Part shown: one piece after another, positions 28,609 to 33,850 of the stretch
Numbering within the stretch: the first letter of the stretch is position 1
Layout: each line of letters starts with the position of its first letter
NCBI RefSeq assembly: GCF_004337705.1
Contig: NZ_SKBU01000026.1
Span: 1 to 37,057 of the forward strand
Direction of reading: 5' to 3'
DNA from: Rubrobacter taiwanensis
GTDB lineage: Bacteria; Actinomycetota; Rubrobacteria; Rubrobacterales; Rubrobacteraceae
DNA length: 37,057 nucleotides
The notes under the pieces: generated by a model
Seen by the model: the letters and a program-made list of their open reading frames with translations, nothing else
The model's database searches: none
What the model was told of the DNA's origin: nothing
Program-made: the position numbers and the translations under genes

Positions 28609-30105
28609 ATGAGGACTGGCGAGAAGATGCGGACGTATGAGGAGGGGCGGTTTCGGGGGGATGGTGGCCGGCGGTTGCTGGTAAGGCTCTCCGGCGAGGT
28701 GGGCACCAAGTCCCGGCGGACCCGCCGCCGTTTCCTCGGGATACTGGTACGCAACATGTACCGGGCGCTAAGGGCTGCCGGCATACGCGCCGACATCAGG
28801 CCGGAGTGGAGCCGCGTGTTCGTGAGTACCGGGGATCCTGCCCGGGCCCGGGAGGCTCTGGTGCGGGTGTTCGGCATCCGGTCTGTAGCCGAGGTAGTCG
28901 AGGTGCCGTATACCTCGCTGGAGGGGCTTGTGGAGGAGCTCGTTCCGCTCTTCGGCGGTCGGGTATCCGGGCGGACCTTTGCGGTGCGTCCCCGCGCCGA
29001 GCGGGCTCCGGTATCTTCCCGGGATGTGGCCTACGAGCTGGGGGCTGCGCTTCTGCCCTTCTCTGCCGGGGTAGATCTGGACCGTCCGGAGGTCGAGGTT
29101 CCGGTGGAGCTTACGGGCGAGCGGGCCTTCGCTGTGATGGAGAGCACGCCGGGGCCGGAAGGTCTGCCGCTCGGCACGGGCGGGAGGGCTGTGGCTCTCT
29201 TCTCCGGCGGGTTCGACTCTCCCGTGGCGGCCTGGCGGACCATGCGCCGGGGTGTTCGGCTCGATCTGCTCATCTGTGATCTGGGCGGGTGCGGTCAGAT
29301 CGAGCAGGCCCTGGCCGTGGCGCGGGAGCTGGCCGTCCGGTGGGCTCCGGGGCACGGGGTCCGGGCGCACGTGGTGGATCTGGCCCCGGTTGTGGCGGCT
29401 CTCGTGCGCCGGGTTAATCCGCGGCTGCGGCAGCTTCTGCTCAAGCGGGCCATGTACCGGGCCGGGAGCCTGCTGGCCGGGGAGGTCGGGGCCGAGGCTC
29501 TGGTCACGGGAGAGTCGATCGGTCAGGTCTCAACGCAGACGCTGCGCAATCTCTCCGTGGCCGAGCGCGCCGCCGGGCTGCCCGTCCTGCGGCCCCTCGT
29601 CGGGACGGAGAAGAACGAGATCATAGACACGGCCCGGCGCATCGGGACCCACGGCGCGTCGGCCGCCGTCAAGGAGCACTGCTCCATCGCTACGGGCCCG
29701 GTGGAGACCTGGGCCGAGCCGGAGGAGGTTCTCGGCGCGGAGGGCGAGCTGGGCCGGGATGTGGATGAGGGATGGATGCGGCGGGCCGTGGAGAACCGCC
29801 GGGTGATAGACCTCAGGCACTGGGAGCCGGAGGAGACGCCCTCCTACGTGGTGGATCGCGTGCCCGAGGGGGCCGTGGTGGTTGATGTCCGCGAGCCCGG
29901 GGAGGGACCTCAGGTGGGAGAGATACGGCTGCCCTTCTCCCGGGCTCCGGAGCTGCTGGGCGGACTCGATCGCTCCCGGGAGTACCTGCTCGTGTGCGCC
30001 AGCGGCCGGCGCTCCGAGATTCTGGCCCGCGAGCTTCTGGAGCGCGGCTATAAAGCCTCCAGCCTGGAGGGCGGCGTGGAGCGCCTGGCCGCCGCGCAGG
30101 GGTAG
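28609..30105 (+). CDS. thiI: tRNA 4-thiouridine synthase ThiI with rhodanese domain
   Basis: This 498-residue protein matches the long form of ThiI. It has an N-terminal ferredoxin-like and THUMP region (residues about 20-190), a PP-loop ATPase domain with FSGGFDSPVAAW (about 205-400) and a C-terminal rhodanese domain with VVDVRE and the persulfide cysteine in VCASGRRSE. A second cysteine in KEHCSIATGP fits the resolving cysteine of E. coli ThiI. The enzyme adenylates U8 of tRNA and transfers sulfur, and the rhodanese domain can also serve thiazole synthesis. ATG 28609 is used; ATG 28627 is an alternative with little effect. Confidence 0.93.
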   Translation: MRTGEKMRTYEEGRFRGDGGRRLLVRLSGEVGTKSRRTRRRFLGILVRNMYRALRAAGIRADIRPEWSRVFVSTGDPARAREALVRVFGIRSVAEVVEVPYTSLEGLVEELVPLFGGRVSGRTFAVRPRAERAPVSSRDVAYELGAALLPFSAGVDLDRPEVEVPVELTGERAFAVMESTPGPEGLPLGTGGRAVALFSGGFDSPVAAWRTMRRGVRLDLLICDLGGCGQIEQALAVARELAVRWAPGHGVRAHVVDLAPVVAALVRRVNPRLRQLLLKRAMYRAGSLLAGEVGAEALVTGESIGQVSTQTLRNLSVAERAAGLPVLRPLVGTEKNEIIDTARRIGTHGASAAVKEHCSIATGPVETWAEPEEVLGAEGELGRDVDEGWMRRAVENRRVIDLRHWEPEETPSYVVDRVPEGAVVVDVREPGEGPQVGEIRLPFSRAPELLGGLDRSREYLLVCASGRRSEILARELLERGYKASSLEGGVERLAAAQG

Positions 30106-30136: not shown

Positions 30137-30163
30137 CTCTCGCCGGTAATCCGCAGGACTCCT

Positions 30164-30183
30164 GCTTCTTCCGGAGAAGAAGC
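30164..30183 (+). promoter_or_regulatory. Leader hairpin before rpsF, possible S6:S18 site
   Basis: GCTTCTTC (30164-30171) pairs perfectly with GAAGAAGC (30176-30183) around loop CGGA, so CCG lies at the stem-loop junction. In many bacteria an rpsF leader hairpin exposing CCG binds the S6:S18 complex for feedback control. The match is suggestive only. Confidence 0.4.
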
Positions 30184-30195
30184 CGCTTTAGACCG

Positions 30196-30203
30196 AAGGA
30201 GGT
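30196..30203 (+). promoter_or_regulatory. Ribosome-binding site that sets the rpsF start
   Basis: AAGGAGGT is a full match to the anti-Shine-Dalgarno. It stands six bases before ATT 30210 and 24 bases before the first in-frame ATG, so it points to ATT as the start. Confidence 0.85.
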
Positions 30204-30209
30204 ACGAAG

Positions 30210-30551
30210 ATTCAGCTCTACGAAGTCATGCTCATAGTCATCCCCGAGCTGGATGAGGAGCAGGTCGAGAACACCCTCTCCCGGGCGCGGACCGTGATCG
30301 AGCGCACCGGGGGCGAGGTGAAGAACGTCAACCAGTGGGGTAAGCGCAAGCTGGCCTACGAGATCGAGCACCGGACCGAGGGCTTCTACGCTGTCATGGA
30401 GTTCACCGCCGGCGAGCGGACGCTCCCGGAGCTCAAGCGCATCCTGCGCGTCTCGGACGACGTACTGCGGCACATGATCGTCAGGCTCCCCGAGGGCTAC
30501 GCCCGCACCGGCGGCGAGGAGGAGGCCACCGAGCCGGTGGCGGCCGAGTAG
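30210..30551 (+). CDS. rpsF: 30S ribosomal protein S6, probable AUU start
   Basis: The protein is S6, with GGEVKNVNQWGKRKLAYEI and GFYAVMEFTA as in the family, 113 residues when read from ATT 30210. S6 normally begins MRxYEVMLIV; here the frame reads QLYEVMLIVIPEL right after ATT. An in-frame TAG at 30189 excludes earlier starts, and no ATG, GTG or TTG occurs before ATG 30228. Starting at 30228 would delete most of the first beta strand. AUU starts are known for infC, where IF3 controls them, so S6 output may respond to IF3. S6 binds 16S rRNA together with S18, encoded next. Confidence 0.93.
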   Translation: MQLYEVMLIVIPELDEEQVENTLSRARTVIERTGGEVKNVNQWGKRKLAYEIEHRTEGFYAVMEFTAGERTLPELKRILRVSDDVLRHMIVRLPEGYARTGGEEEATEPVAAE

Positions 30552-30579: not shown

Positions 30580-30828
30580 TTGGGTAGAAAGAAAGGCACA
30601 GCCGCCGGGTTCCGCCCGGGCAAGAGGAAGGTCTGCCTCTACTGCAAAGAGGGCATAGAGTACGTAGACTACAAAGACTACAACACGCTCCGCGGTTTCA
30701 TGTCCGACCGGGGCAAGATCCGGGCCCGCCGCGTGACCGGGCTCTGCCCTCAGCACCAGCGCGAGGCCGCCGTGGCGATCAAGCGCGCCCGGGAGATGGC
30801 GCTGCTGCCCTACGTGATCGGCCGCTAG
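30580..30828 (+). CDS. rpsR: 30S ribosomal protein S18
   Basis: This 82-residue protein matches S18: [58 protein letters not shown]. Three cysteines and a histidine (CxxC and CPQH) can form the zinc site of the C+ type of S18. The TTG at 30580 is eight bases after AGGAGG. In most bacteria ssb lies between rpsF and rpsR; here the gap is only 28 bases and ssb is absent. Confidence 0.96.
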
Positions 30829-30841
30829 AGGGGAGGCTGCG

Positions 30842-31291
30842 TTGCAGGTAATACTCAAGCAGGACGTCGAGAAACTCGGCCGCCGGGGCGAGGTCGTCGA
30901 GGCCAGCGCCGGGTACGTGAGGAACTACCTGATCCCGCGCAACCTCGCCGAGGTCGCCACCCCGGCCCGGCTGGAGGAGGTCCGGCGTCAGATGGAGGAG
31001 GCCGCCGAACGCGAACGCCGCATGGCCGAGCGCGCCGAGGAGATCGCCGAGACGCTCAACAAGAGCGTCATCACCATCGAAGCCCGCACCGGAGAGGACG
31101 ACCGGCTCTTCGGCTCCGTTACCGCAGCCAATATAGCCGAGGCCATCGAGAAGGCTCGCGATATCCACATCGACCGGCGCAAGATCCTGCTGGAAGAGCC
31201 GCTCAGAGTCCTCGGTACCTACCAGATCCCCGTCCAGGTACACGGCGATGTCCAGGCCACGGTCAAGGTCATCGTGGTCCCCAAGCTGTAA
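30842..31291 (+). CDS. rplI: 50S ribosomal protein L9
   Basis: The TTG at 30842 follows GGGGAGG. The 149-residue product has the L9 layout: an N-terminal domain (QVILKQDVEKLGRRGEVVEASAGYVRNYLIP), a long charged helix (about 42-75) and the C-terminal domain (LFGSVTAANIAEAI, ending VKVIVVPKL). L9 bridges neighbouring ribosomes and helps maintain frame. It ends the ribosomal gene set and is followed by a terminator hairpin before dnaB. Confidence 0.96.
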   Translation: MQVILKQDVEKLGRRGEVVEASAGYVRNYLIPRNLAEVATPARLEEVRRQMEEAAERERRMAERAEEIAETLNKSVITIEARTGEDDRLFGSVTAANIAEAIEKARDIHIDRRKILLEEPLRVLGTYQIPVQVHGDVQATVKVIVVPKL

Positions 31292-31375: not shown

Positions 31376-33850
31376 ATGGAGCGCCGGGGGAGGATCAGAG
31401 GCTTACCGGGTGGGTCTGAGGCGTCCCGGGTACCGCCGCACGACCTGGATGCGGAGCGGGCGGTGATCGGGGCGATGCTGGTTTCGGAGGCTGCCGTTTC
31501 GGTGGTTGGGGAGGTGCTTGAGGAGGAGGACTTCTACTCCGAGACCAACCGCCTCATCTACCGGGCTATGACGCGGCTGTACTCGCGGGGCGAGCCCATA
31601 GACCAGCTCACGCTGGCCGAGGAGCTGCGCGGGATGGGGGAGCTCGACCGCATCGGGGGGCGCGGCTACATCTTTCAGATCGTCGAGAGCGTGCCCACGG
31701 CGGCGAACGTGGGGCGTTATGCGGAGATCGTCCGCAGCAAGGCGCTGCTGCGGGCCGTCATAGACGCTGCCACCCGGATAACCGAGGACGCCTACCGGGA
31801 GCCGGAGGACGTGAGCGAGGCGCTGGACGCTGCCGAGCAGCTCATATACGGCGTCTCCAACCGCACCCTCAGCAAGCATCTCTCGCCGGTTTCCGAGCTG
31901 GCGCCGAACGTGTTGGATCAGATCCAGCATCTCTATGACCTTGGGGGACCGGTCACCGGGGTGGAGACCGGCTTTGAGGACCTGGACCGGCTGACGACCG
32001 GGTTTCACAGGAGCGATCTGATCATTCTCGCCGCGCGGCCGGCGATGGGGAAGTGTCTGAAGTGGGACAGCCTTGTCGTTGACCCCGAGAGCGGGGAGAG
32101 ATTGACCATTGAGGAATGTGTAAAGCGGCGGCTGCCGCGCGTACTGAACGTGTCTAACGCGGGGGAGCTGCAGACAGCTTCTGTCTCAGGCTGGATAGAC
32201 AGCGGTGTCAAGCCGTGCTTTCGGGTTACGACGCGCACGGGGCGCAAGGTCGAGGTCACCGGCCATCATCCGTTCTTGACGGCGGAAGGATGGAAGCCGC
32301 TGCATGATCTGGGCATCGGGTCTCGCATCGCTGTGCCGCGAAGCCTGCCGGTGTTCGGAGGGGACGAGTCCTTGCCCATGGACCGGGTGCGTTTGCTCGC
32401 CTACTTCGTAGCCGAGGGCGGGTTAACCCGGCCGTGTCCTGAGTGGGCGAAGCCAGACCCGGCTCTCATCGAAGATTTTAAGGCGGCGATCTCCCGCCAG
32501 TTCCCCGAGGTCGTAGTAAGATGGGGTATTCGCGGGGACTGCGAGATTGTGGGATATCGTCGTGAAGGTGAGGACGCCGTCACCGCCTGGCTGCGCGAGA
32601 TCGGGCTGACGGGCAAATGCGCGGAAGGAGAGTCTTTCCCCCGCTGCGTTTGGAGGTGGAGCCGCCGCTACCTGGCCGAGTTCTTGCGGGTGCTGTTCAG
32701 CTGCGGCGGTACGATCTACCGGTCGGGCAATCGTCCCCGTATCGGGTTTAGCGCCGGTTCTGAGGGGCTTGCGCGCGACGTGCATCACGCTCTCGTACGC
32801 TTCGGCATAGTCTCCGAGCTGTGGCGCGAGAAGGAGGGGTGCTGGCGGGTCGAGATCACGGCCCCGGACGCCGTGCTGCGCTACCAGGCCGAGATCGGCT
32901 GGATGGGAGAGAAGGCGCTCCGCTTCGCGGAGCCGGGATGTTACGGCCCGCGTGCCGGTCGCGACCTGCCGGCCGCCCGGCTCGGAGAGTGCCCCGGTAC
33001 TCTGGATGACGAGGCGCTGGAAAGGAGCGCCAGCCCGGATATTTTGTGGGATGAGATCGTCGCCATCGAGCCCACAGGAGAGCACCGGGTCTACGACCTG
33101 ACCGTGCCGGATGGTTCCAACTTCATTGCCCAGGACATTTGCGTCCACAACACGGCCATGGCGCTGAATATCATTCAGCACGTGGCCGAACGGCAGCGGC
33201 TGCCGGTGGCGATCTTCTCGCTGGAGATGAGCAAGCAGCAGCTCGTGCAGCGGCTCATCGCGCAGAAAACACGCATAAAGACCCAGGATCTGCGCAACGG
33301 CAACGTGGAGGCCGGGGACTGGCCGAAGCTGATGCGCGGGGTGGCCGAGATCAGCGAAGCCCCCATCTGGATAGACGACACTGCCGGCGTGACGCTGATG
33401 GAGATCCGGGCCAAAGTCCGACGGCTGGCCAGCCAGCTGAACAGCCGGGGCGCTCAACTAGGGCTCGTGGTCGTGGACTACCTGCAGCTCATGGTCGGCC
33501 AGAACCGGGAGAACCGCCAGCAGGAGATCGCCGAGATCAGCCGCGGCCTGAAGGTCCTCGCCCGCGACCTGGACGTGCCGGTGCTCGCGATAGCCCAGCT
33601 CTCCCGCGCCGTCGAGCAGCGTCACGACAAACGCCCGATGCTCTCGGACCTGAGGGACAGCGGCAGCATCGAGCAGGACGCGGACATGGTGATCTTCCTC
33701 TACCGCGACGAGTACTACAACCCCGACTCCGACGACAAAGGCATCGCCGAGGTCATCGTCGGCAAGCACCGTAACGGTCCGACCGGCAAGGTACAGCTCG
33801 CCTGGCTGGAGCAGTACACCAAGTTCGCCTCGCTGGCGCGCGGCGAGTAG
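31376..33850 (+). CDS. dnaB: Replicative DNA helicase DnaB with intein
   Basis: The 824-residue precursor contains DnaB interrupted by a 366-residue intein. The N-terminal helicase domain starts RVPPHDLDAERAVIGAML. The RecA-like domain has the Walker A motif RPAMGK, which is completed to GKT only after splicing, Walker B (LGLVVVDYLQLM), SLEMSK and a C-terminal DADMVIFLYRDEYY. Without the intein it is 458 residues, normal for DnaB. It unwinds DNA ahead of the replication fork and cannot bind ATP until spliced. ATG 31376 is the only usable start, yet the AGGAGG at 31369-31374 ends one base before it, an unusually tight spacing. Confidence 0.97.
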   Translation: MERRGRIRGLPGGSEASRVPPHDLDAERAVIGAMLVSEAAVSVVGEVLEEEDFYSETNRLIYRAMTRLYSRGEPIDQLTLAEELRGMGELDRIGGRGYIFQIVESVPTAANVGRYAEIVRSKALLRAVIDAATRITEDAYREPEDVSEALDAAEQLIYGVSNRTLSKHLSPVSELAPNVLDQIQHLYDLGGPVTGVETGFEDLDRLTTGFHRSDLIILAARPAMGKCLKWDSLVVDPESGERLTIEECVKRRLPRVLNVSNAGELQTASVSGWIDSGVKPCFRVTTRTGRKVEVTGHHPFLTAEGWKPLHDLGIGSRIAVPRSLPVFGGDESLPMDRVRLLAYFVAEGGLTRPCPEWAKPDPALIEDFKAAISRQFPEVVVRWGIRGDCEIVGYRREGEDAVTAWLREIGLTGKCAEGESFPRCVWRWSRRYLAEFLRVLFSCGGTIYRSGNRPRIGFSAGSEGLARDVHHALVRFGIVSELWREKEGCWRVEITAPDAVLRYQAEIGWMGEKALRFAEPGCYGPRAGRDLPAARLGECPGTLDDEALERSASPDILWDEIVAIEPTGEHRVYDLTVPDGSNFIAQDICVHNTAMALNIIQHVAERQRLPVAIFSLEMSKQQLVQRLIAQKTRIKTQDLRNGNVEAGDWPKLMRGVAEISEAPIWIDDTAGVTLMEIRAKVRRLASQLNSRGAQLGLVVVDYLQLMVGQNRENRQQEIAEISRGLKVLARDLDVPVLAIAQLSRAVEQRHDKRPMLSDLRDSGSIEQDADMVIFLYRDEYYNPDSDDKGIAEVIVGKHRNGPTGKVQLAWLEQYTKFASLARGE
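32054..33151 (+). mobile_element. DnaB intein with decayed LAGLIDADG endonuclease
   Basis: The intein runs from Cys227 (CLKWDSLVVD) to Asn592 (ICVHN) of the precursor and splits Walker A between Lys and Thr, so Thr is the +1 nucleophile. Splicing motifs are intact: block B VTGHHPFLT, block F RVYDLTVPDGSNFIA, and terminal His-Asn. The first LAGLIDADG helix is LLAYFVAEGG (about 340-349). The second, FLRVLFSCGGT (about 436-446), has Gly where a catalytic Asp is expected (LFSCDGS in active relatives). Splicing should work while homing is probably lost or weak. Parts of the intein use more AT-rich codons than the host gene. Confidence 0.96.

Follow-up and report, generated by a model that had tools for sequence, protein, structure and literature searches.

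The rpsF locus of Rubrobacter taiwanensis

The window analysed here is a 37,057-nucleotide stretch of the Rubrobacter taiwanensis genome containing the operon rpsF-rpsR-rplI, followed by dnaB; the three operon genes and the leader features described below lie on the forward strand. The gene rpsF (30210..30551) encodes the 113-residue ribosomal protein S6, as identified by Pfam (PF01250, E = 1.3e-31) and by alignment to PDB entries. Ribosomal proteins S18 (rpsR, 30580..30828) and L9 (rplI, 30842..31291) were assigned by Pfam, and comparison of starts gives both genes a TTG start codon. Directly 5' of the rpsF leader lies the coding region of a ThiI-like protein that has a rhodanese domain fused at its C-terminus (28609-30105), and the DnaB helicase (31376-33850) carries an intein with Intein_splicing and LAGLIDADG domains at the P-loop, after AARPAMGK.

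The start codon of R. taiwanensis rpsF is almost certainly AUU (ATT, 30210..30212). Of the codons that follow the Shine-Dalgarno (SD) sequence AAGGAGGT (30196..30203), it alone resembles a start, six bases separate it from the SD, and an in-frame TAG at 30189..30191 bars any start further upstream, the S6 frame after this stop reading T-E-G-G-T-K-I-Q-L-Y-E-V-M. A phmmer comparison of the product with PDB entries pairs its residue 3 with residue 3 of the solved Bacillus subtilis S6, which places ATT at the Met1 position of solved S6 proteins. The 16S rRNA 3' end GGATCACCTCCTTTCT, which contains the anti-SD, was found in the genome together with an ordinary initiator tRNA containing GGGCTCATAACCC. 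An altered initiator tRNA was thus rejected as the cause of AUU decoding, and with an ordinary anti-SD as well, relaxed decoding through such a tRNA is unlikely. Across the genome, AAGGAGG followed by ATH (H = A, C or T) at 4-8 nt occurs 107 times versus 39 for the reversed pattern, a raw count that cannot tell real starts because the motif also occurs within genes. The SD-ATH motif by itself is weak evidence in one genome; it is the comparison with relatives that raises the rpsF case above chance.

The rpsF leader

The SD of rpsF is predicted to be sequestered in a structured leader. Folding of the leader itself and the family consensus both give a helix P1, in which CUCCU (30159..30163) pairs with AGGAG of the SD (30197-30201), and a hairpin P2 (30164..30183); the consensus fold of 47 leaders backs P1 and P2, and in several P2 pairs both partners are substituted. 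The stretch between P2 and the SD holds two conserved elements, a CCG beside P2 (30183..30185) and AGACC (30190..30194). The CCG belongs to an AAGCCG (30180-30185) that the alignment shows to be kept in nearly all relatives, and it is the probable S6:S18 contact by analogy with E. coli, in which binding of S6:S18 to the rpsF_leader represses translation and changing two conserved cytosines abolishes the regulation (PMC4647458). Fold and conservation together indicate that the R. taiwanensis leader matches an S6:S18-type, SD-sequestering element, which the first-pass annotation had overlooked and which is probably the main regulator of rpsF. The leader structure 5' of rpsF is common to other phyla too. 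An Rfam scan of the leader gave no relevant match up to E = 5, only chance microRNA matches; the motif is possibly absent from Rfam 15.

rpsF start codons in Rubrobacteraceae

Relatives were collected by an S6 search, which matched in 57 of 60 related genomes, and by a contig search that added named Rubrobacter and Rubrobacteraceae records. The start regions of the resulting 35 distinct Rubrobacteraceae rpsF sequences were aligned on an invariant Tyr-Glu. The start codon is ATA in 18, ATC in 10, ATT in three, TTG in three and GTG in one, and ATG is found in none of the 35. AUA, AUC or AUU (AUH) in an SD-AUH-Tyr-Glu layout is therefore the arrangement of 31 of these sequences, and GGAGG stands 5-9 nt 5' of the start in the set. 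No canonical start lies between the SD and Tyr-Glu in any of the 31 AUH-type sequences. Most relatives, like R. taiwanensis, have none in the whole interval from the upstream stop to Tyr-Glu, and the few upstream ATG, GTG or TTG codons in AUH genomes are at least 14 codons before Tyr-Glu, 5' of the SD. Two species of genus g9 have a longer S6 N-terminus, still with ATA behind the SD (ATA ACC GAG GAC AGA). In two of the loci with TTG (L004 and L005), an ATT is immediately 5' of the TTG, and both rpsF genes could also start there.

These results bear out part of what the first-pass annotation had claimed. Its AUU start is strongly backed by SD, frame, alignment to Met1 and AUH conservation in the family; the full SD six bases from ATT and the stop at 30189 that bars longer frames are as it described, and the comparison of start codons among relatives that it had proposed gave AUH without a single AUG. 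Its statement that AUU starts are very rare holds across bacteria but not for rpsF of Rubrobacteraceae, where AUH is the rule.

Background on start codons was taken from the operon neighbours and from the S10-spc region. All 86 S18, L9 and DnaB genes compared in the rpsF loci have ATG, GTG or TTG where the alignment places the start or within a few codons 5' of it, and the three codons interchange freely. In the S10-spc region of 20 family genomes (about 360 starts, 21 genes), all but four starts had an in-frame canonical codon near the conserved N-terminus; this tally was made by hand with a loose criterion and serves as a loose control only, since the wrong frame was chosen for several genes (L23, L22, L5, RpoA and L17 regions). 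Among the other families of the phylum, most rpsF genes start with ATG, TTG or GTG. A pattern search of 396 phylum genomes, in which a leader AGNCC plus GGAGG was tied to ATH and Tyr-Glu (degenerate leaders would escape it), matched rpsF in 29 Rubrobacteraceae genomes and in no other family; two matches outside the family (G160 and G282) proved on inspection not to be rpsF. Two further genes seem to have unusual starts: rpsF of genome G042 (L100, family f8) likely starts with CTG, and the IF1 gene of G018 (L183) has no ATG, GTG or TTG near its N-terminus, so that CTG may be its start, while its relatives have TTG.

Evolution of the rpsF start codon

Codon changes were reconstructed by Fitch parsimony on a midpoint-rooted tree of S6, S18, L9 and DnaB (33 sequences). 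The AUH class is ancestral for rpsF in Rubrobacteraceae, and the tree carries nine start-codon changes, two of which are between AUH and canonical codons, one in the lineage of L006 plus genus g2 and one in L008. That at least two lineages of the family moved to UUG or GUG means, as read from the sequences, that AUH is dispensable for rpsF. Although a single transition would turn AUA into AUG, no rpsF start seen in the family is AUG; on its own, the record of roughly six or seven exchanges between AUA, AUC and AUU with none to AUG is only mildly improbable, about (2/3)^6 = 0.09 if bases are equally likely. So few independent events give a moderate, not an overwhelming, statistical argument for selection.

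The infC start codon

Since IF3 rejects non-canonical starts, its gene was examined in Rubrobacteraceae. The known infC starts include ATT in E. coli and ATC in Streptomyces (PMC5472188), and AUA in Staphylococcus aureus (PMC13009471). In all 29 complete loci of the Rubrobacteraceae infC set (L063-L092), infC appears to start with GTA, behind GAGGAG or AAGGAG and followed by GCN. Six of the loci have a stop three codons 5' and no ATG, GTG or TTG from that stop to the conserved Arg-Ile-Asn. In R. taiwanensis itself (L074) there is an in-frame GTG 5' of the GTA, without a clear SD, so the GUA start of this infC rests on the family comparison. We found no report of GUA for infC in Rubrobacter in the open-licence literature. 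Outgroup infC genes start with ATC, ATA or ATT in most cases and with GTC in one family, f8 (L114 and L128), where this start is an apparent one. The family-wide GUA codon was unexpected and is noteworthy in its own right, and it supports a working IF3-type discrimination in Rubrobacteraceae.

Alternative explanations

The main rival to selective retention of a weak start as a brake is that the AUH codon is real and has no regulatory role, being a mutation that was fixed in the family ancestor, tolerated through a strong SD and left to drift among AUA, AUC and AUU. The SD is indeed strong throughout the family, the third base is free among A, C and U, and the switch to UUG or GUG in some lineages had no evident effect. 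Against such a tolerated accident stand the absence from all 35 sequences of an AUG that is one base away, while the starts of the neighbouring genes interchange among ATG, GTG and TTG, and the fact that infC of Rubrobacteraceae also keeps a non-canonical start; we regard it as a serious explanation of clearly lower probability.

Far less probable is a shorter S6 beginning at the ATG at 30228, with the AUU region untranslated. This ATG, codon 7 (Met7), is the earliest in frame and the first canonical start, and it is invariant in Rubrobacteraceae. However, it has no SD near it, the strong one being 25 nt off, and the shorter protein would lack the first strand's Tyr-Glu, a pair conserved in the family, in outgroups and in solved S6 proteins. 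Within Rubrobacteraceae these two residues never vary although the codons for them do, which shows that the region is translated and argues against a Met7 start. A sequencing or assembly error masking an ATG or GTG at 30210 found no support and is in practice refuted, AUH occurring at the same place in genomes sequenced independently by many laboratories, including two single-contig assemblies.

Proposed role of the weak start

We lean towards the view that the weak rpsF start is kept by selection and throttles S6 initiation on top of the S6:S18 feedback, probably in an IF3-sensitive manner. In S. aureus reporters, expression from AUA and AUU starts is about 10-30% of that from AUG (PMC13009471), and in Streptomyces translation from one non-canonical start is reduced by IF3 (PMC5472188); on these grounds it is proposed that the weak codon caps S6 and that IF3 is a second input. 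The non-canonical infC start in the same family makes IF3 control of rpsF plausible. The family ancestor would already have possessed an AUH start and its descendants retained it. The ordinary initiator tRNA would read AUU at 30210 as fMet, but 30S complexes formed on the strong SD would commit to elongation slowly on such a codon and would normally be rejected there by IF3, which would cap S6 output. The delay would allow extra time for the leader hairpin, which excess S6:S18 would stabilise, to close over the SD, and the weak codon would in this way broaden the range of this hairpin-based feedback, to which IF3 would add its own signal. Reduced initiation, IF3 sensitivity and interplay with the S6:S18 feedback are thus all features that we infer for rpsF. 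The requirement for S6 in ribosome-stoichiometric amounts fits awkwardly with a weak start.

A wider scheme may be envisaged, although we consider it doubtful, in which IF3 (GUA start) governs both its own abundance and the abundance of S6 (AUH start), so that IF3 relative to free 30S subunits would tune S6 synthesis and, together with the S6:S18 feedback, 30S assembly. Coupling of S18 and L9 to the AUU start of rpsF would be a further conjecture; the link of their synthesis to the IF3 level suggested by the first-pass annotation finds no support here, both genes having their own ordinary start codons.

Comparison with known systems

Neither non-canonical starts nor the S6:S18 leader is new. 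In the open-licence literature searched, neither an AUH start for Rubrobacter rpsF nor any ribosomal protein gene with a family-wide AUA, AUC or AUU start was found. Few bacterial starts of this type are known, and the literature searched gives IF3 itself and some other individual genes. That a ribosomal protein gene has AUH throughout a family, beside neighbours with ordinary starts, suggests that start-codon discrimination serves the control of ribosome biogenesis, and the succession of AUA, AUC and AUU with reversions to UUG or GUG offers a natural evolutionary series useful for studying weak starts. In practice, gene finders limited to ATG, GTG and TTG will truncate S6 of this family to Met7 or extend it, and will misplace the infC start.

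The leader resembles the rpsF_leader, or S6:S18 mRNA motif, in its position 5' of rpsF, the SD within P1, the P2 hairpin and the conserved CC(G), but here it is joined to an AUH start, whereas most outgroup species examined have the motif before AUG, GUG or UUG. The closest parallel for the start codon is infC (AUU in E. coli, AUC in Streptomyces, AUA in S. aureus, with IF3 autoregulation), which shares a non-canonical start behind an SD, a role in the translation machinery and clade-wide conservation; rpsF differs in encoding a ribosomal protein rather than IF3, in that its IF3 dependence is only proposed, and in a third base that varies among A, C and U. In pcnB (AUU), ccpN (AUA), cvfC1 (AUU) and sigR (GUC), too, initiation of a single gene is limited by an atypical start, and those of ccpN, cvfC1 and sigR are conserved in their clades. 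The products of these four genes are regulators, processing enzymes or small proteins, whereas S6 is an abundant structural protein of the ribosome.
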